Assembly: GCA_016932035.1 (NCBI GenBank)
Contig: JAFGDR010000011.1
Span: 1-64,000 of the forward strand
Origin: Candidatus Cloacimonadota bacterium
GTDB lineage: Bacteria; Cloacimonadota; Cloacimonadia; JGIOTU-2
Reading direction: 5' to 3'
DNA length: 64,000 nt
Position numbers and translations under genes: made by a program. The notes beneath the pieces are model-generated. The model searched no databases. It was not told the origin of the DNA and saw nothing but the letters and a program-made list of their open reading frames with translations. Positions 14,149 through 36,857 of the stretch are shown piece by piece; position 1 is the first letter of the stretch, and every line of letters starts with the position of its first letter.

Positions 14149-14409
14149 CTATTTCTCGACTAATCGACCTTTTACATACTTATGAAGCACACTTGCGATC
14201 AAAGTTTGATAAGGTATTCCTTCTGCGAGAGATTTCGCTTTTAACTCATTAACTACTTTTTCTGAAAGACGGATATTAATACGCTTATTTTTCAGGAATG
14301 TATTTCTTGCAGCTTCCGTGAGTGCTTTTTTCTTATTCTGTATATCATCGACTGGGAGCCATTCACCCTTTTCAAAGGAATCTAAGACTTCTCTTTCATA
14401 TTTATCCAT
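14149..14409 (-). CDS. CopG-family antitoxin
   Basis: An 86-residue ribbon-helix-helix protein. The C-terminal half RINIRLSEKVVNELKAKS (about 44-61) followed by GIPYQTLIASVLHKYVKG is the CopG/BrnA-type DNA-binding and dimerisation segment. It lies 11 bp downstream of the toxin gene on the same strand. Such antitoxins usually neutralise the partner and repress the shared promoter. Confidence 0.85.
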   Translation of the reverse strand: MDKYEREVLDSFEKGEWLPVDDIQNKKKALTEAARNTFLKNKRINIRLSEKVVNELKAKSLAEGIPYQTLIASVLHKYVKGRLVEK

Positions 14410-14420
14410 ATCTAACCTTC

Positions 14421-14693
14421 TTATGTATCTAAATATAGTTTCGTTGCCTTGCGGCTTGGTATTATCGTTTTAAGAAATATTTCTTCTTCTTTCTCCACAT
14501 AAGGAACAAGATAGGCATAGCGGTTACACTCGATAATCATGACCTTCTGATCAGGATATTTTTCCCTATTAGGATGTTCAACTATATCCAAGATTTTATC
14601 ATTCTCAATTTGGACAACTATTTCTTCGAATGAGATTTTCCTTTCCGCTTTCAATTGCTCATTCTTTTTTTCATTCCACGAGAAATATTTCAT
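14421..14693 (-). CDS. BrnT-like toxin of a type II toxin-antitoxin pair
   Basis: A 90-residue protein beginning MKYFSWNEKKNEQLKAER and continuing ISFEEIVVQIEN. The ending LKTIIPSRKATKLYL is close to the BrnT pattern (WDEEKN, ISFEE, IISARxAT). BrnT toxins are ribonucleases of the RelE/barnase-like fold. The toxin-first order and immediate CopG-type partner support the call. Substrate and activity are inferred only. Confidence 0.78.
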   Translation of the reverse strand: MKYFSWNEKKNEQLKAERKISFEEIVVQIENDKILDIVEHPNREKYPDQKVMIIECNRYAYLVPYVEKEEEIFLKTIIPSRKATKLYLDT

Positions 14694-15108: not shown

Positions 15109-17271
15109 TTATTTTATTCTTATTTTTCTCTGTGTGCTCTGCGTGCCGCGTCGTCGTGAAACAGAGACAGGTGGTTTGATCTGCATCACTAAATTTACTA
15201 TCAATAAACAACCCAGCACAAGAATACTTGTTTTGAACCCAAGAACCGGAAACAGCAATACTCCGACGATCAATCCTCCCGCCATGGAACCAAGACTGTC
15301 TAAAAAGTAGAATGAACTTCCACTTCGAATGCTCTCTTTCTGATACTTTACATCCAGTAGCCTGGACAGAATACTCCCTTCCAGAAATGCAAATAATAGA
15401 TTGAAAAATAAATATATCACTCCGGGTATCAATGCATCAAAAAGGAGCCAGATCAATCCGGCTAAAACGATATTTATGATATACAGCCACAAAATATTCA
15501 TTCGAATTTTCTTACGAAATATAAATCCTGCAGTCAGCCCGATCATGAAAATTGAGGTGAACAAAAATATCATGAAATAGACATTTCCAAACTGCATCTG
15601 GAAGAGATTGAGGAGTACAAGCTGCATGACAAAATTCACTAAGCTGATCAAAAAGACCTGCATATCTATCCTGGTTTGAGATTGAATATTCAGCTTAGAA
15701 GCGCTGAAAGAAAGCAGAAGAATAATCAGCAAACTTACCACAAAGAGTAATCCACTATGTGCTTTCATCCATGAGAGAACAGAACTTATATTCATATCAA
15801 GAATACTCGTCCAAACCGATACTGCAGAGAGATACGCAACAGGATCGGAGATTGTGTTCAACTCCCCTTTCCCTTCAACCGATCTGAAAAACTGCTGTAA
15901 ACGCAATGGATTGCATCGCTCAAATATGACTGCGGCATTGAACCATTCAGACTGATGCTCCTGCGCACGGAACTGGAGTTCCAGAACATTATTTGTGAGT
16001 ACATCTGCATCGCTTCCTATGAAGATATTTTTAATAGATGGGATCACGAGTGTATAAGGAAATATTCGGGAAAAAGTCTCCCACACCGATGCATTGAGCT
16101 GTTCAAGTTCAGGAGTCATAAAATTTGCTCCACTATTTAGTGTGATCGCTAGCAGGGATGATTTATGTAAGAAATGCTCCTGCGCAAGCCGGAAGAACTC
16201 CAATGTATAATACCGGTTCAGCAGCAGTGAAGTCGGGTCAGGCACATCCACAAAAATCACATCATATTTTTCTAAAGCGGTCCGCAAATAATGGACAGGA
16301 TCATCCTGGATATACTGTACATCCGGATGGTGAGGTGCAAAGGCGATCATGTTATTATCCAGTTCAAGATAGTCGATATATTCTAAGGATTCGTACTTTG
16401 TGATTTCAGAAATGAATCCGTTGAGCATACCTCCTACAAGGAGTACTTTTTGTGCATCAGGATTCTGCATCATCACGAAATTCACCATCTGTGCTGCATA
16501 CTCTTGGTTATCAGTATGTGCAAAAAGTTCCCCGTTCCAGTAATAATTCATCTGCTGGTTTTCAGTTGTGACATCCAATCTTCCATATTTTGAATCCCGT
16601 GAAAACTGTAGTTCCTGGGGATAATATTTTCCAGTATAAAAATTCATAAAAAACGGTTCTGCAAAGAACGCAGCGACCACAAAAATCCCCATAGGAACAA
16701 AGAGATACCTCTTATTCGATATCATGAACAGTATGATGAAGTTGATCATTCCAACGAGAAGGAGCAAACGGATATGAGGTAGGAAGAGAATTCCGATTGC
16801 AAAGATAATCCCACCGAATATAATCCCAACACTTTCATAAATATACCCTTCATGCACTGGTTCTTTCAAATCTTGAATATATAAACAAAGTAAAGGAAAC
16901 AATGCTCCGAGGACCAGGCATGCAGGAGTCAGAATTATAAGAGCAATAAGAAAAATATTCCCAATGCTGAACATCTCGCCCGAAATGATCGTGAACGCAT
17001 TCCCGAAAAACCGAATGCCGAAGAATTGTAGGATCAGGAAAGCCGAAAGAAGTAAAAATCCCGCTGATATCCATCTCTCAATATTTTTTTTGTTGAGAAG
17101 ATACTTACCGAGTAAACTACCAACTGCGATCATCAGCAGCCACAAGGAAAGATAGATTGAAAACACGATCTCGTTTCCCTGCACTTCGATGAGCAACTCT
17201 CTTAACAAAACTGTCTGCCCGATGAGTGACGAAATGCCAAGTCCTATGAAAAGCAGCAATTTCTTATGCAT
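15109..17271 (-). CDS. Polytopic membrane protein with spermidine-synthase-like domain
   Basis: A 720-residue protein. An N-terminal membrane half (residues 1-210, about six spans) is followed by a soluble domain (about 215-470) resembling the SAM-binding fold of spermidine synthase. That domain has VLLVGGMLNG in the glycine-rich motif I region, YIDYLELDNNMIAF with the acidic residue, and YDVIFVDVPDP. A second membrane half (about 500-705) closes the protein. It is the fused transporter-like/aminopropyltransferase-like type. It ends in a basic tail (SRRRGTQSTQRK). The radical SAM gene lies 8 bp upstream on the same strand, so the two are probably co-transcribed. Substrate unknown; true polyamine synthesis is uncertain. 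Confidence 0.82.
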   Translation of the reverse strand: MHKKLLLFIGLGISSLIGQTVLLRELLIEVQGNEIVFSIYLSLWLLMIAVGSLLGKYLLNKKNIERWISAGFLLLSAFLILQFFGIRFFGNAFTIISGEMFSIGNIFLIALIILTPACLVLGALFPLLCLYIQDLKEPVHEGYIYESVGIIFGGIIFAIGILFLPHIRLLLLVGMINFIILFMISNKRYLFVPMGIFVVAAFFAEPFFMNFYTGKYYPQELQFSRDSKYGRLDVTTENQQMNYYWNGELFAHTDNQEYAAQMVNFVMMQNPDAQKVLLVGGMLNGFISEITKYESLEYIDYLELDNNMIAFAPHHPDVQYIQDDPVHYLRTALEKYDVIFVDVPDPTSLLLNRYYTLEFFRLAQEHFLHKSSLLAITLNSGANFMTPELEQLNASVWETFSRIFPYTLVIPSIKNIFIGSDADVLTNNVLELQFRAQEHQSEWFNAAVIFERCNPLRLQQFFRSVEGKGELNTISDPVAYLSAVSVWTSILDMNISSVLSWMKAHSGLLFVVSLLIILLLSFSASKLNIQSQTRIDMQVFLISLVNFVMQLVLLNLFQMQFGNVYFMIFLFTSIFMIGLTAGFIFRKKIRMNILWLYIINIVLAGLIWLLFDALIPGVIYLFFNLLFAFLEGSILSRLLDVKYQKESIRSGSSFYFLDSLGSMAGGLIVGVLLFPVLGFKTSILVLGCLLIVNLVMQIKPPVSVSRRRGTQSTQRKIRIK

Positions 17272-17279
17272 GTGTAATA

Positions 17280-18362
17280 TTATTCAAACTCACCAAAGAT
17301 GTCATATCCGCAATATTCACATTTACCGTCCTTAATATGCATGTCCAGCAAACTGAAACCGTACCGATCGATGATCTTCTTTCCGCAGTTCGGACAGTAT
17401 GTATCTTCGGATGCACTGATAATATTTCCTAAGTAGATATATTTCAATCCAACTTCTTTTGCTATTTCATACGCCATCTCAAGAGTTTTGACCGGGGTCG
17501 GTGGTCGGTTCGTCAGTTTGAATTGCGGTGAAAATCTTGAGAAATGAAGCGGGTATTCTGTACCTATCGTATCTTTCAACCACACGCACATTTCTCGTAT
17601 CATGTCAGGATCGTCATTGGCATCAGGAATAACCAAGTTTGTAATTTCAAAATACAGATCTTCTTCTTTGCATATCTCAATCGTTTTAAGAACCGGCTCG
17701 AGTGTGCCTGTCGTATAAGTTGAATAAAAATCTTCGGAATATCCCTTCAGGTCTATATTGGCAGCATCGAGGTATGGGATGAGCTGCCGGAGCGGTTCTT
17801 CATTAATATAACCGCAGGTCACCCACACGGTTTTGATGCCGTTTTCATGTGCACACTTTGCAATATCTATCATATACTCATAAAAAACTGTCGGTTCTGT
17901 ATACGTAAAGGCAATGCTTTCGCAGTTATATTCTTTAGCCAGTTCGACAATCTCTTCAGAAGTTGCATTATACGATTGCACTTCACCGGGATTTGATTGA
18001 GAGATCGTCCAGTTCTGGCAAAAATTGCACCTGAGATTGCACCCCACTGTTGCAAGAGAAAGGATATTCGAACCCGGGTAAAAATGATAGAGAGGTTTCT
18101 TCTCGATAGGATCGATATTTACGGAAACAGGTTTGTTATATACCAGTGAGTAAAGTTTACCATCTATGTTTTTTCGGACGCGACAAAGACCGGTTAAACC
18201 TTCTGGAAGGTAGCATCTATTCGGACACAGTGTGCACTGAACAGAGCCGTCATCATTCTTTGCATAGAATTGCGCTTCTCTTAAAAGCTCTAAACCACGC
18301 GATGATCCGAGCAGGAATATTGAAAGCAAAACCAAGCCGGTAATGAGTGCACATTTCTTCAT
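17280..18362 (-). CDS. amrS: AmmeMemoRadiSam system radical SAM enzyme
   Basis: A 360-residue radical SAM protein. The [4Fe-4S] motif CNLRCNFC (about residues 109-116) follows the family's SLATVG strand. Before it is a Cys-rich segment CTLCPNRCYLPEGLTGLCR (about 42-60). The C-terminus has a zinc-ribbon-like pair (CPNCG and CEYCG). The first 25 residues (MKKC, then a long hydrophobic stretch to GSSRG) look like a signal peptide or membrane anchor, unusual for an enzyme needing SAM and a reduced cluster. Partner domains Memo and AMMECR1 are encoded as one fusion at 35364-36857. Reaction unknown. Confidence 0.93.
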   Translation of the reverse strand: MKKCALITGLVLLSIFLLGSSRGLELLREAQFYAKNDDGSVQCTLCPNRCYLPEGLTGLCRVRKNIDGKLYSLVYNKPVSVNIDPIEKKPLYHFYPGSNILSLATVGCNLRCNFCQNWTISQSNPGEVQSYNATSEEIVELAKEYNCESIAFTYTEPTVFYEYMIDIAKCAHENGIKTVWVTCGYINEEPLRQLIPYLDAANIDLKGYSEDFYSTYTTGTLEPVLKTIEICKEEDLYFEITNLVIPDANDDPDMIREMCVWLKDTIGTEYPLHFSRFSPQFKLTNRPPTPVKTLEMAYEIAKEVGLKYIYLGNIISASEDTYCPNCGKKIIDRYGFSLLDMHIKDGKCEYCGYDIFGEFE

Positions 18363-18539: not shown

Positions 18540-20414
18540 TTAGAACTTGAACAGACCGTCCAGCAGATCCTTCGCCTGATTTTGCAGCACATTTCCAAGA
18601 ATATCTTCGTCCTCACCAATGAGATCATCGAGTACAACAAACTCTTTATTGAAACGTGATTTCTGTTCATCGAACATCGCCTGCAGTTTTCTCTGCTGCT
18701 TCTGAATTTCCTGGTTCAGTTGATCTTTATATTTCTGTAATTCCTTATCCACTTTTGCACGGAGTTCCTGTTTTGCGAGATCAAGCTCCTGTTGGAATAC
18801 ATCCTTTGCAGCATTGGTCAGCATTTTATCAAGATTGCTGGTGAGTGTGAACTGAAGAGGTTGTTCCCTTTCCTGCCACAGTTTAGCTTTGAAGTCAATA
18901 GTAGTAATCGAAGCTGCCAGATTCTCACTAATACGCACCAATCGCTTATCCATATCCTGATTCCTGGGTGATGGAGTAAACTGCACTTTATCTGCAACAA
19001 AATCAATCCTTGTTTCAAACTCTGGACGATGCAATAACATTCTCGCATCGATTTTTCCAGAGCCACTCTCAAGTCTACTCGGCAGCAGAGGAGTATTGCT
19101 AAGCTGGATATTCTTCATCGGAAGATTGCTCATCAATATGGTAAGTTTCTCTTCACTCTGCTCAAAACGGTAATCAAAAGTCAGTTCAATATCGAGCTGT
19201 GCATTATCCTGACGAATCGCCTTCGCAGCAAGTACTGTTGGGGCATCGATCAATTTCTGGTCGCTTGTGATATTTGATACTACACCGGAGAATGCAGATC
19301 CGGTTTCTGTTGTACTTGAAAAATCGATCTTCTTTATCCAGAAGGATGGAAACATGGTTCCCGGCTTAGGCGGATACGTGATATTTTGACCTGTCGATCT
19401 GGGCTTCTTTTCTTTCTTGGGCTTACCGTCTTTTTTCAGTTTATCCAGAATTGCTTTCCCTTTGCCGACATACTCAATGACTTTGTTCACCTTATCGATA
19501 ACCTGTGTGCCAAATACGATCTTCCCCATATTCTCTGTTGAAAGATCCGGGAGTTTTGCATATGACAGAACCTTGTTCTTATCCTGATCGATCCAGTACG
19601 TTACCTCGCCGCCAAGGTTCTGCACAAGCCGCGAGTCATTATTGATGGCAAGCTGAATATCATCATATTGTTTCTTGTACCCATTTGCCTTATCGATAAT
19701 CGTCTTGATGGTTGCCAGTGCTTGTTCTGCATCCTGTACAGTCTTGATATTGTTGATATCTAAGCTCTTTACCTGTGCTTCAAGTTCTTTAACATCTTCC
19801 TGATCCGGAAGATCTTCGATACGCTTTTCCCATTCATCATACTTCTGCTCATAGAGCAGTATGAGCGAATCTACTTTCTGCGGTGTCTTCATATCAGCCA
19901 TTGCCATCAGACTGTCCACATTGAAGTCCTTATTAAATTGATCCAAATTCAAGACAGGCATTTGCTTCATTTCATCTTTGATCCCTAACTCAATATCCTT
20001 AATAAATTTCGGAGATTCCTTCTTTTCTCCCTCTTCTTTCTTCTTTGGTTGCCACTTTTTAGGAAGCGATCCATCAGTCGTCCGCTCTGTATTGAAGGCA
20101 ACATCACTCATCTGCAGGTTCTCAATCACGAATTTCTTCTTAAGAAGCGGAGCAAATGCAAGATTGAACTCCGTGAATCCGGATTCAAAAGAGTTCTCCC
20201 ACACATTATCAGGATTCGTTACCCGCAGTCTATCCCATGATAATCGTAAGCTGAAAAGTGAGAAATCCAGTCCGTCAAATTCAACCTTTGCTCCAACCAT
20301 CTTGCTGCCAATCATCTCCATCTGTTTCTCAAGCCAGCTATCCGTGAATATGAGAGAAATAACGACAATAATGATCGCAAGTACGAGCAAGAATATAATT
20401 CCTTTTACGCGCAT
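18540..20414 (-). CDS. TIGR03545 family envelope protein (AsmA-like)
   Basis: A 624-residue protein with one N-terminal membrane helix (GIIFLLVLAIIIVVISLIF, residues 5-23). A large periplasmic part follows, with an AsmA-like beginning (VEFDGLDFSLFSLRLSWDRL, about 43-62). Long charged coiled-coil segments lie near residues 180-270 and 540-600 (Lys/Glu/Gln-rich). The stop-to-start distance to the TIGR03546 protein is one base, so they form an operon. AsmA-like proteins are linked to lipid transport or outer-membrane assembly. The specific role of this family is unknown. Confidence 0.85.
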   Translation of the reverse strand: MRVKGIIFLLVLAIIIVVISLIFTDSWLEKQMEMIGSKMVGAKVEFDGLDFSLFSLRLSWDRLRVTNPDNVWENSFESGFTEFNLAFAPLLKKKFVIENLQMSDVAFNTERTTDGSLPKKWQPKKKEEGEKKESPKFIKDIELGIKDEMKQMPVLNLDQFNKDFNVDSLMAMADMKTPQKVDSLILLYEQKYDEWEKRIEDLPDQEDVKELEAQVKSLDINNIKTVQDAEQALATIKTIIDKANGYKKQYDDIQLAINNDSRLVQNLGGEVTYWIDQDKNKVLSYAKLPDLSTENMGKIVFGTQVIDKVNKVIEYVGKGKAILDKLKKDGKPKKEKKPRSTGQNITYPPKPGTMFPSFWIKKIDFSSTTETGSAFSGVVSNITSDQKLIDAPTVLAAKAIRQDNAQLDIELTFDYRFEQSEEKLTILMSNLPMKNIQLSNTPLLPSRLESGSGKIDARMLLHRPEFETRIDFVADKVQFTPSPRNQDMDKRLVRISENLAASITTIDFKAKLWQEREQPLQFTLTSNLDKMLTNAAKDVFQQELDLAKQELRAKVDKELQKYKDQLNQEIQKQQRKLQAMFDEQKSRFNKEFVVLDDLIGEDEDILGNVLQNQAKDLLDGLFKF

Positions 20415-20415
20415 C

Positions 20416-20940
20416 TTACCCTCCTACAACTTTAATCTTCTTGTACAAACCAACAAGCTTGGATGAGGAGAGTACTTTGACGATCTTGAATTTCTTAACT
20501 CTGACAGAAAGTTTATTCCTGTATACCAAAACGAGTTCTTTTATCAAAAAAAATACAGGAACAATCAGCAAAATCGCACAGATCAATCCACCCATGACCA
20601 CAGTATTATTAAATCGTGTATAAGGCAGTATCGGAGCATTATAGACGCCGGTCCATAATTTTTGAAGAAATGCTATCTGCACGAGCACCCAATACCCGAT
20701 CGAATGAAATAAACCATCCAGTAAATATCCCAGCAATCCGCAAAGGGCAAAAGATACGATCGCCATGGTAATATTCACATTCAAAAGAATGATAAGGAGA
20801 ATGATCAGTATTTTAAACAGACTGAATCCCGGAATGAAGCCGAGGAACATACCGAGCACGAATCCCCATGCAAGCTGCGCCGGTGATGCTGCTGATTCCA
20901 GAAGTTTAATGATCTTAGAAATAAATTTTAGTATGATCAT
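20416..20940 (-). CDS. TIGR03546 family membrane protein
   Basis: A 174-residue inner-membrane protein with about three to four helices. It starts with a short amphipathic segment (FISKIIKLLESAASPAQLAWGF is the junction) and then GMFLGFIPGFSLFKILIILL, a DUF2062-like pattern. It is first in the two-gene operon with the TIGR03545 protein. The constant pairing of these families implies joint action in the envelope. Confidence 0.82.
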   Translation of the reverse strand: MIILKFISKIIKLLESAASPAQLAWGFVLGMFLGFIPGFSLFKILIILLIILLNVNITMAIVSFALCGLLGYLLDGLFHSIGYWVLVQIAFLQKLWTGVYNAPILPYTRFNNTVVMGGLICAILLIVPVFFLIKELVLVYRNKLSVRVKKFKIVKVLSSSKLVGLYKKIKVVGG

Positions 20941-35363: not shown

Positions 35364-36857
35364 ATGTTAGAAAAAATTGGAATTTTTTTATGTCTTATGC
35401 TTTTTTCGACAAACCTCTGGGCTGAAACGCTTGAACCATCTCTTGCAGGCACATGGTATCCTGGTTCAAAAAAAGAACTAGAAAGTATGCTTACAAAGTT
35501 CTTTGATAATGTTGAGTTGGGTAAGAACAAGAATATTATCCCTTTTGGAATCATATCACCTCATGCCGGGCTTGTTTATTCCGGTCCGATCGCTGCGTAT
35601 GGATACACACTCCTGAAAAATGGAAATTTCGATACGGTAATCATTATTGCAACAAGCCATCGATACAATGCAGGAAAGATCAGTATATACAGCGGAGATA
35701 ACGTAAAATCACCGCTCGGTTCATCAAAAGTAGATAAAGAGATCGCTCAAAAAATTCTTGCATCGCATACTGATTTCGAATATATACCGCAGGTCTTTAC
35801 TGATGGCGAGAACAGCTTCGAAACACAACTTCCCTTTGTACAATACCAGCTCCCAAACGCTGAGATCGTTCCTATTATGACAGCGACAAATGATTATTCG
35901 CTCCTCAATAATCTTGCACATGCGCTCATTTCAATTATTGAATATTCCGACAAGAAGATCGCGCTGGTTGCAAGTTCGGATATGGCACATTTCCATCCTT
36001 ACAAGCAAACTGTAGATATGGATCGTCACACGATCGATGTGATCCTGAGCATGGATGAAGAAGAACTGAAAAAAGAAGTTGCTCGGGGAAAATGTGAGAT
36101 CTGCGGATTCCACTCGATCTATCCATTTATGAAAGTTATGAAATACTTCGGTGCTGACAAACCGATCATGCTCGCTTACCAGAACTCAGCTGACATTACT
36201 GGTGATCAGTACTCGGGACATATCGTTGGATATTCCTCGATCATTTTTCCTGAACCGGAGACTGGTATTCAGAACAAAATAACTGAAGAAGAAGGTGACG
36301 TGTATACGACTGAAGAAAAAAAATATCTCCTCGATCTTGCGCGAAAAAGCATTGTATATTATCTTAAAAATGGGAAACGTATGCAGCCAGAAAAACCAGA
36401 TAATTCAAAATTGACCGAAGATCGGGCAGTATTTGTCACATTGAATGAATTTGGAGACCTGCGTGGTTGCATCGGGCACATGGATGCGCAGATGCCGCTT
36501 TATCAAGCTGTTTCAAAAATGGCTGTTTCTGCTGCTGTCGAAGATCCTCGCTTTACGAAAGTAAAAGAAAAAGAACTTCAAAATATTACCATAGAAATTT
36601 CAGTGCTGTCACCTATGGAAAAGATAACGGACTGGAAGCAGATACGCATGGGTATCGATGGGGTTTGGATCAGAAAAGGATGGCAAAGCGGTGTTTTCCT
36701 GCCCCAGGTTGCCACTGAAACCGGTTGGGACAGAGTGACATTCCTTGAAAATCTGTGCGCTCATAAAGCCGGTCTGCCCCGAGATGCATACAAAGATCCG
36801 AGTACAGAAATTTACATTTATCAGGTAGAGAAGTTCAGCGAAGAAGAGTTAGATTAA
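35364..36857 (+). CDS. amrB-amrA: AmmeMemoRadiSam system protein B-A fusion (Memo + AMMECR1)
   Basis: A 497-residue protein. A signal peptide (MLEKIGIFLCLMLFSTNLWA) is followed by a Memo domain (about 22-285): LAGTWYPGS, IISPHAGLVYSGP, ATSHRYNAG, SSDMAHFHPY and CEICGFHSIYPF, holding the His/Cys set expected in Memo. An AMMECR1 domain follows (about 320-490): FVTLNEFGDLRGCIGH, AVEDPRFTKV, GVWIRKGWQSGVFLPQVA. The radical SAM partner lies at 17280-18362. Both have hydrophobic export-like N-termini. In this conserved but unsolved system the fusion implies that Memo and AMMECR1 act in one complex. Confidence 0.93.
   Translation: MLEKIGIFLCLMLFSTNLWAETLEPSLAGTWYPGSKKELESMLTKFFDNVELGKNKNIIPFGIISPHAGLVYSGPIAAYGYTLLKNGNFDTVIIIATSHRYNAGKISIYSGDNVKSPLGSSKVDKEIAQKILASHTDFEYIPQVFTDGENSFETQLPFVQYQLPNAEIVPIMTATNDYSLLNNLAHALISIIEYSDKKIALVASSDMAHFHPYKQTVDMDRHTIDVILSMDEEELKKEVARGKCEICGFHSIYPFMKVMKYFGADKPIMLAYQNSADITGDQYSGHIVGYSSIIFPEPETGIQNKITEEEGDVYTTEEKKYLLDLARKSIVYYLKNGKRMQPEKPDNSKLTEDRAVFVTLNEFGDLRGCIGHMDAQMPLYQAVSKMAVSAAVEDPRFTKVKEKELQNITIEISVLSPMEKITDWKQIRMGIDGVWIRKGWQSGVFLPQVATETGWDRVTFLENLCAHKAGLPRDAYKDPSTEIYIYQVEKFSEEELD

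Follow-up and report, generated by a model that had tools for sequence, protein, structure and literature searches.

A candidate exported AmmeMemoRadiSam variant with a spermidine-synthase-fold membrane partner in Cloacimonadota

Genes at the locus

The window analyzed here, a stretch of 64,000 nucleotides from the metagenome-assembled genome (MAG) of an uncultured anaerobe of Candidatus Cloacimonadota ( GenBank assembly GCA_016932035.1, contig JAFGDR010000011.1, positions 1 to 64,000 of the forward strand), contains a pair of genes for a radical S-adenosylmethionine (SAM) protein of the AmrS family and a large membrane protein with a spermidine-synthase-like domain. Both open reading frames (ORFs) lie on the minus strand, with AmrS upstream (17280..18362, 360 amino acids [aa]), the membrane protein downstream (15109..17271, 720 aa) and 8 bp between them (17272-17279), an arrangement that the initial annotation had described correctly. 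The name SPD is used for this ‘spermidine-synthase’ membrane protein of the window and for its relatives. A fusion of MEMO and AMMECR1 domains is encoded elsewhere in the window (35364..36857, plus strand, 497 aa), and the set under study consists of AmrS and MEMO-AMMECR1, both with N-terminal signals, plus SPD. The source MAG comprises 2.44 Mb in 66 contigs and is 95.3% complete, and the named records closest to the window AmrS belong to Candidatus Cloacimonadota.

The assignment of the upstream gene to AmrS stands, since the protein scores 393 bits in a profile search with TIGR04337 (cut-off 220); it also scores 81.9 bits against PF04055. Its radical SAM [4Fe-4S] motif CNLRCNFC occupies residues 108-115 (18018..18041, minus strand), and the CxxxCxxC pattern is unchanged across 26 aligned relatives. 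Judged by its N-terminus, however, the protein is an exported paralogue and not the classical cytoplasmic AmrS: approximately residues 1-22 (18297..18362, minus strand; MKKCALITGLVLLSIFLLGSS) form a putative signal peptide or signal anchor, assigned by reading the sequence and comparing it with relatives. In the window and in its relatives, signals were recognized by eye and hydropathy from a positively charged N-terminus that leads into a hydrophobic core. A second TIGR04337 protein of the same genome (G000:C45; locus L267, 8854-9855; 328.9 bits) lacks a signal, its start lying close to the usual EAQFY segment.

The MEMO-AMMECR1 fusion matches PF01875 (35433-36242, 192.7 bits) and PF01871 (36333-36836, 195.1 bits) within one ORF, contains LRGCIG, and begins with a predicted signal peptide of about 21 residues (35364..35426, plus strand; MLEKIGIFLCLMLFSTNLWAE) that was read from the sequence and is alike in relatives. 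It is the only MEMO match and the only AMMECR1 match detected in the MAG, whose cytoplasmic AmrS is accordingly left with no cytoplasmic partner of either type. The AmrS signal, the second AmrS and the MEMO-AMMECR1 fusion had all been overlooked in the initial annotation.

SPD is predicted to have 14 helices. An AlphaFold2 model built from 19 sequences (pLDDT 87.0, pTM 0.85) shows seven helices, a synthase fold and seven further helices, and the segment between helices 7 and 8 (residues 217-505; 15757..16623, minus strand) holds the synthase-like domain. PF01564 (Spermine_synth) matches residues 258-419 with 53.8 bits against a gathering score of 22.9, and the domain resembles solved aminopropyltransferases by both sequence and fold. 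The best 50 rows listed in a Foldseek search with the whole model were all aminopropyltransferases and gave no lead on the membrane part. None of the polyamine equivalog cut-offs is reached by SPD (score/cut-off: NF002956, 98.8/472; NF002010, 61.7/260; TIGR00417, 54.4/249.55; NF002435, 50.9/537).

Residues and charges were counted in the 137 SPD sequences that scored >300 bits and were longer than 640 aa, a set assembled with loci L376-L433 left out. Lys plus Arg is greater in even than in odd loops in all 137 (means 21.1 versus 3.7; 24 versus 2 in the window protein), a pattern that would place both termini inside and the synthase-like domain outside. At the positions aligned with the adenosyl-pocket acids, E303 is kept in 108, D324 in 128 and D337 in 136 of the 137 sequences; we take these residues to contact ribose and adenine. 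Conserved polar residues also occur in the membrane part (Q19 in 137, R24 in 135, E25 in 135, E34 in 137 and D658 in 134 of 137), and MFS_1 is matched weakly, under its gathering score, in three relatives.

The acid of the GxG(D/E)G motif, which spermidine synthases are described as needing to bind decarboxylated SAM (PMC10349129), is D or E in 2/137 SPD and is replaced by Leu in the window protein, while the catalytic Asp aligns with D in 34/137 and with N in 63/137. By the criterion applied in that paper to the fungal protein NHMT, SPD is, as far as its sequence tells, not a spermidine synthase. The earlier description of a fused membrane and aminopropyltransferase-like protein therefore holds for the membrane helices and the PF01564 fold and fails at the diagnostic acid and the polyamine cut-offs; the polyamine substrate that it proposed for the AmmeMemoRadiSam system finds no support in the two residue counts.

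Conservation of the set across phyla

The recurrence of the association in other genomes, which the initial annotation had offered as the check on its proposal, was examined with a profile (A1) built from 19 SPD sequences, taking hits at E <=1e-40 in Omnitrophota and Cloacimonadota, 1e-50 in Elusimicrobia and the phylum of genome G072, and 1e-12 in the phylum of genome G068. SPD relatives are present in at least 152/235 Omnitrophota genomes, 30/124 Cloacimonadota genomes, 49/149 genomes of the Elusimicrobia phylum, 35/240 of the phylum of G072 and 8/9 of the phylum of G068 (full-length in 7). Exported AmrS, exported MEMO-AMMECR1 and SPD co-occur in at least five phyla, so the association is not confined to this genome.

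The pairing is not due to chance: AmrS or MEMO shares the SPD locus in 25 of 30 cases in Cloacimonadota and 27 of 30 top-scoring cases in Omnitrophota when 1.5 kb is read on both sides, and at lower ranks in Omnitrophota, with 5 kb read on both sides, in 41 of 60. The corresponding counts are 3/7 in the phylum of G068, 11/30 in Elusimicrobia and 17/30 in the phylum of G072. Gene order is variable (AmrS-SPD, SPD-AmrS, convergent and divergent), and the linkage thus appears to have outlasted rearrangement. At four Elusimicrobia loci with lower-scoring SPD and none of the sought partners (L394, L396, L399 and L403), SPD adjoins what resembles, judged by the N-terminus, a single kind of exported protein; the example tested, at L396, is a Beta-CASP metallo-hydrolase.

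Among related Cloacimonadota, 15 of 59 genomes encode an exported-type AmrS (at least 61% identity to the window AmrS), with the signal readable in 14 and masked by Ns in the remaining one. All 15 have SPD, versus 2 of the 44 others: G016, where just an AmrS fragment is found at a contig end, and G051, where SPD adjoins a different radical SAM protein. A long MEMO ORF (at least 457 aa) is likewise found in 14 of the 15 (the exception being G017) versus 1 of the 44, G049, which has the exported fusion and a single AmrS match with no signal. Every long Cloacimonadota MEMO ORF that was read has an N-terminal signal. More generally, MEMO-AMMECR1 fusions carry signals or lipoboxes (lipobox-like in L112, L113 and L117) and the standalone MEMO ORFs that were read (~275 aa) carry none. 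In other phyla, the ten genomes of loci L049-L058 all combine a signal- or lipobox-bearing fusion with an SPD relative, although in three of them, G059-G061, SPD is low-scoring (326, 182 and a broken match of 205 + 48 bits) and lies away from AmrS. In G060, a gap of 8 bp separates the exported MEMO-AMMECR1 fusion from the start of a gene for a UbiA-type prenyltransferase (L261, 7663-8586), which may point to a substrate of the isoprenoid or quinone type.

The classical AmrS proteins of related genomes lack both signals and SPD neighbours. Within the 30 Omnitrophota loci scoring highest with TIGR04337 (L206-L235), none has SPD within 1.5 kb and no AmrS has a convincing signal. At L062, AmrS and the adjoining MEMO-AMMECR1 both lack a signal, which is consistent with the two proteins keeping to one compartment. 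Twin-arginine (Tat) signals, as would be expected of a protein exported in a folded state with its cluster, are present on the AmrS of L058, L151, L153, L161, L162 and L174. For the 235 Omnitrophota genomes, at least two AmrS are found in 124 of the 152 with SPD versus 8 of the 83 without it, among the matches listed (Fisher p ~3e-28, with relatedness ignored). Neither AmrS nor MEMO adjoined SPD within the stretch read in 22 Omnitrophota genomes, and for 19 of these 20 regions around their AmrS were retrieved; 18 of the 20 AmrS have a Sec- or Tat-like signal (the exceptions, L348 and L349, both come from G286), with MEMO in 16/20 regions and DsbD_2 in 10/20.

A tree was built from 164 AmrS cores thinned at 80% identity to 135 rows, which came from loci fetched through AmrS or SPD searches, some because SPD was elsewhere, and are not a random sample. 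With L232, which has an over-long start, counted as cytoplasmic, SPD lies within 5 kb of AmrS in 67 of the 88 exported or split rows versus 1 of the 47 others. The 88 rows form one side of a branch in the best tree; with a support of only 20 for this branch, a single origin of exported AmrS was not adopted.

One Omnitrophota sub-group has AmrS near SPD with no signal of its own, the protein starting only shortly ahead of the first CxxC. Twelve such rows and L348 nest within an 84-row exported group (SH-aLRT 91), with L331 outside it, and the nesting suggests that the signal was probably lost secondarily. Small ORFs adjoin these genes and end in the EAxYY-type segment with which AmrS usually starts. 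Upstream, they encode transmembrane peptides or the tails of NosR-like proteins. Downstream, 14 loci encode mini-proteins of ~50-75 aa with a Tat-like start (RR in L249, L250, L251, L269, L284, L285, L319, L325, L327 and L348; RK or RS in L253, L254, L273 and L277), most of which repeat the N-terminal segment of AmrS at their end and finish in Gly; L275 has only a tail and no mini-protein. One reading is that AmrS receives its N-terminal part in trans and is exported by hitch-hiking.

A second radical SAM family also adjoins SPD (L262, 10158-11273; L264, 1076-2173; L413, 348-1463; L428, 3776-4858; L384, 2827-3792). Its members carry export signals in the first four of these loci and none in L384, and the two tested score 27 and 33 bits with TIGR04337. 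Genome G072 has two SPD, one adjoining each type of radical SAM protein.

Carriers that could deliver electrons across the membrane are found at many of the loci. DsbD_2-like genes occur in 12/30 and 10/60 of the two Omnitrophota sets and in 8/30 Elusimicrobia loci, and NosR-like domains in 1/30 and 9/60 Omnitrophota loci and 9/30 in the phylum of G072; Pfam and NCBIfam confirm the carrier domains in examples. None of the 30 Cloacimonadota SPD loci has a DsbD_2 or NosR-like profile match above threshold, the only carrier-like gene there being that of an exported FMN_bind protein adjoining the SPD of G051. At one Elusimicrobia locus in which none of the sought partners was found (L391), neighbouring genes resemble carriers with weak scores and match Fer4_5 in Pfam. 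By Pfam, L288 encodes a fusion of FMN_bind and Fer4_5 (NosR-like) with AmrS, and SPD is fused to FMN_bind in L326, L327 and L420; by profile, SPD-NosR fusions occur in 5/60 Omnitrophota SPD loci and 9/30 loci of the phylum of G072. Hydropathy predicts an additional seventh helix in the carrier part of L288, which would put the fused AmrS outside, and in the SPD-FMN_bind fusions one extra helix between SPD and FMN_bind, which would put the flavin mononucleotide (FMN) domain outside as well. FMN-binding domains of NapH-like proteins are described as extracytosolic (PMC8238504). The flavinylation motif [S/T]GA[S/T] was read in the context of an FMN domain in 16 of 25 proteins checked, with any match in 18/25.

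Other genes flank the pair in the window. Upstream of AmrS, after a gap of 177 bp, lies a TIGR03546-TIGR03545 pair (271 and 145 bits; 18540-20940, minus strand). A phmmer search with both as candidate operon members found neither at any of 71 loci from other genomes, many with short flanks, and the candidates were set aside. Two small genes lie downstream of SPD (14149-14693, minus strand), and a similar pair stands directly 3' of SPD in the relative G006 (L346, 15685-16240). The pair resembles what we take to be a BrnT/BrnA toxin-antitoxin module.

Proposed function and alternatives

The AmmeMemoRadiSam system was reportedly defined by Haft and Basu in 2011. As in that system (TIGR04335, TIGR04336, TIGR04337), the set in the window has a radical SAM protein, MEMO and AMMECR1 domains. 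It differs from that system in being exported, in having MEMO and AMMECR1 joined in one protein, and in counting SPD and electron carriers among its members; the signals on AmrS and MEMO-AMMECR1 mark it as a variant and not as the classical system. The individual families are known already, and the novelty lies in an exported assembly that includes SPD and electron carriers. The open literature yielded no description of an exported AmrS or of SPD with a radical SAM enzyme, and an earlier mention is possible, for instance in the PCAD-Memo survey (Burroughs, 2019).

In the proposed mechanism, signal peptides would direct the export of AmrS and MEMO-AMMECR1, and both would work on the external side of the cytoplasmic membrane. 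SPD would be their membrane partner, its 14 helices displaying the spermidine-synthase-fold domain on the outside, where the domain would most likely bind SAM or its by-products and would not transfer aminopropyl groups. It could then supply SAM to the external radical SAM enzyme or remove 5'-deoxyadenosine from it, and electrons would reach the enzyme through transmembrane carriers, either DsbD_2 or FMN-binding NosR/NapH-like proteins. Domains, N-terminal hydrophobic signals, linkage, fusions and the predicted fold are read directly from sequence or model. The later steps are held with differing confidence. That SPD is a functional partner is very probable, and the export of the system, judged from its signals, is only slightly less so. 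This bears out the idea in the initial annotation that the neighbouring gene is a clue to AmmeMemoRadiSam, with the correction that SPD is the partner of an exported paralogue and not of the classical AmrS (0/30). Electron supply by transmembrane carriers is likely. The handling of SAM or its by-products by SPD is a hypothesis whose chances we put somewhat short of even. The complete statement, that the window encodes an extracytoplasmic AmmeMemoRadiSam variant with all of these properties, comes close to an even chance and stays just under it.

Several observations weigh against this reading. No extracytoplasmic source of SAM is in evidence, and the ribose Glu (E303) is lost in 29/137 SPD. 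None of the sought partners was found in the stretch read at 19/60 Omnitrophota SPD loci or, at the thresholds used, at 17/30 Elusimicrobia SPD loci, the latter being mostly loci with lower-scoring SPD. Among the matches listed, TIGR04337 finds nothing at 1e-70 in three Omnitrophota genomes that carry SPD, and SPD is lacking from eight Omnitrophota genomes with two AmrS. G017 and G076 (a relative of G043) have the AmrS-SPD pair and no MEMO match. The signal-less AmrS sub-group counts on the same side, as does the scan for a trans segment, which found none in L252, L317 and L331; it found none in L326 either, yet the SPD fusion of that locus ends in such a tail. Finally, only one independent pair stands on supported branches of the AmrS tree, and the association is not separable from phylogeny.

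Alternative roles for SPD were weighed against the same evidence. The domain could belong to an extracytoplasmic methyltransferase that modifies the substrate of AmrS itself and supplies no SAM. The model for this is NHMT (AN4663), a histidine methyltransferase of the fungal endoplasmic reticulum, described as having seven N-terminal helices and the same synthase-like fold, acting on secreted proteins, needing its membrane part and having Ile where the GxG(D/E)G motif has its acid (PMC10349129), a position at which SPD has Leu in the window and D or E in only two of the 137 sequences. The likeness is one of general description; SPD has seven further helices, and the search reported in that paper recovered the membrane domain of NHMT from fungi alone. 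Against a methyltransferase, the loss of the ribose Glu noted above counts again, and SPD pairs with two exported radical SAM families and occurs in carrier fusions, which favours SAM supply over one more modification step and fits a fixed substrate less well. We consider this role unlikely. Less probable again is a transporter or flippase for the substrate of the system (a lipid, quinone or peptide) with the synthase-like domain as a degenerate binding module. The 14 helices, their conserved polar residues and the weak sub-gathering MFS_1 matches would suit such a protein, but the acids of the adenosyl pocket are mostly kept and would be needless in a module for another ligand.

Radical SAM enzymes are generally regarded as cytoplasmic because they depend on SAM and on an Fe-S cluster of low potential. 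If the hydrophobic N-termini were inward-facing anchors, the whole system could be cytoplasmic, with SPD working with AmrS inside, and the several split-type AmrS that lack a signal would then be less of a puzzle. The Tat signals, the lipoboxes and the charge pattern of SPD oppose this arrangement, as do the fusions, which would place FMN domains outside, where those of NapH-like proteins are described to be (PMC8238504), and we regard it as improbable. The original proposal, which casts SPD as an aminopropyltransferase in the membrane and a polyamine as the AmmeMemoRadiSam substrate, draws on the Spermine_synth match above the gathering score and on the resemblance to solved aminopropyltransferases in sequence and fold. 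SPD also partially matches the membrane polyamine aminopropyltransferase family NF002956 (PRK03612), of which profile positions 47-450 of 522 align with SPD residues 30-412 at 98.8 bits. However, this score is far below the cut-off of 472 and SPD has seven extra helices; the acid diagnostic for decarboxylated SAM is absent from 135/137 SPD, no equivalog cut-off is reached and the domain is predicted to lie outside, which leaves the proposal scarcely credible. The other substrate suggested there, a membrane acceptor, is possible, as is an extracytoplasmic one.

Implications for radical SAM chemistry outside the cytoplasm

The electron-transfer side of the preferred reading, an extracytoplasmic AmrS served by SPD and membrane carriers, resembles the NapH-like and DsbD routes of extracytosolic electron transfer (PMC8238504) in that FMN_bind and Fer4_5 lie beside or are fused to AmrS or SPD and DsbD_2 lies beside AmrS. 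It differs in its presumed client, a radical SAM enzyme; the words radical, spermidine and AMMECR1 are absent from the main text of that paper. A tentative generalization, which we again rate below even, is that several phyla possess a dedicated extracytoplasmic radical SAM apparatus equipped with a transmembrane electron supply, and that SPD, in moving SAM across the membrane or clearing products, is common to at least two exported radical SAM families.

If the proposal is correct, a conserved exported set with its own carriers would extend radical SAM chemistry to the cell envelope and would raise the question of how SAM comes to be available outside. The substrate of AmmeMemoRadiSam, at least in this branch, would then be limited to what can be reached from outside, such as a lipid, a quinone, a secreted protein or an envelope polymer. 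MEMO and AMMECR1 are conserved through to humans, and a bacterial version that comes with additional genetic clues would be valuable for that reason.

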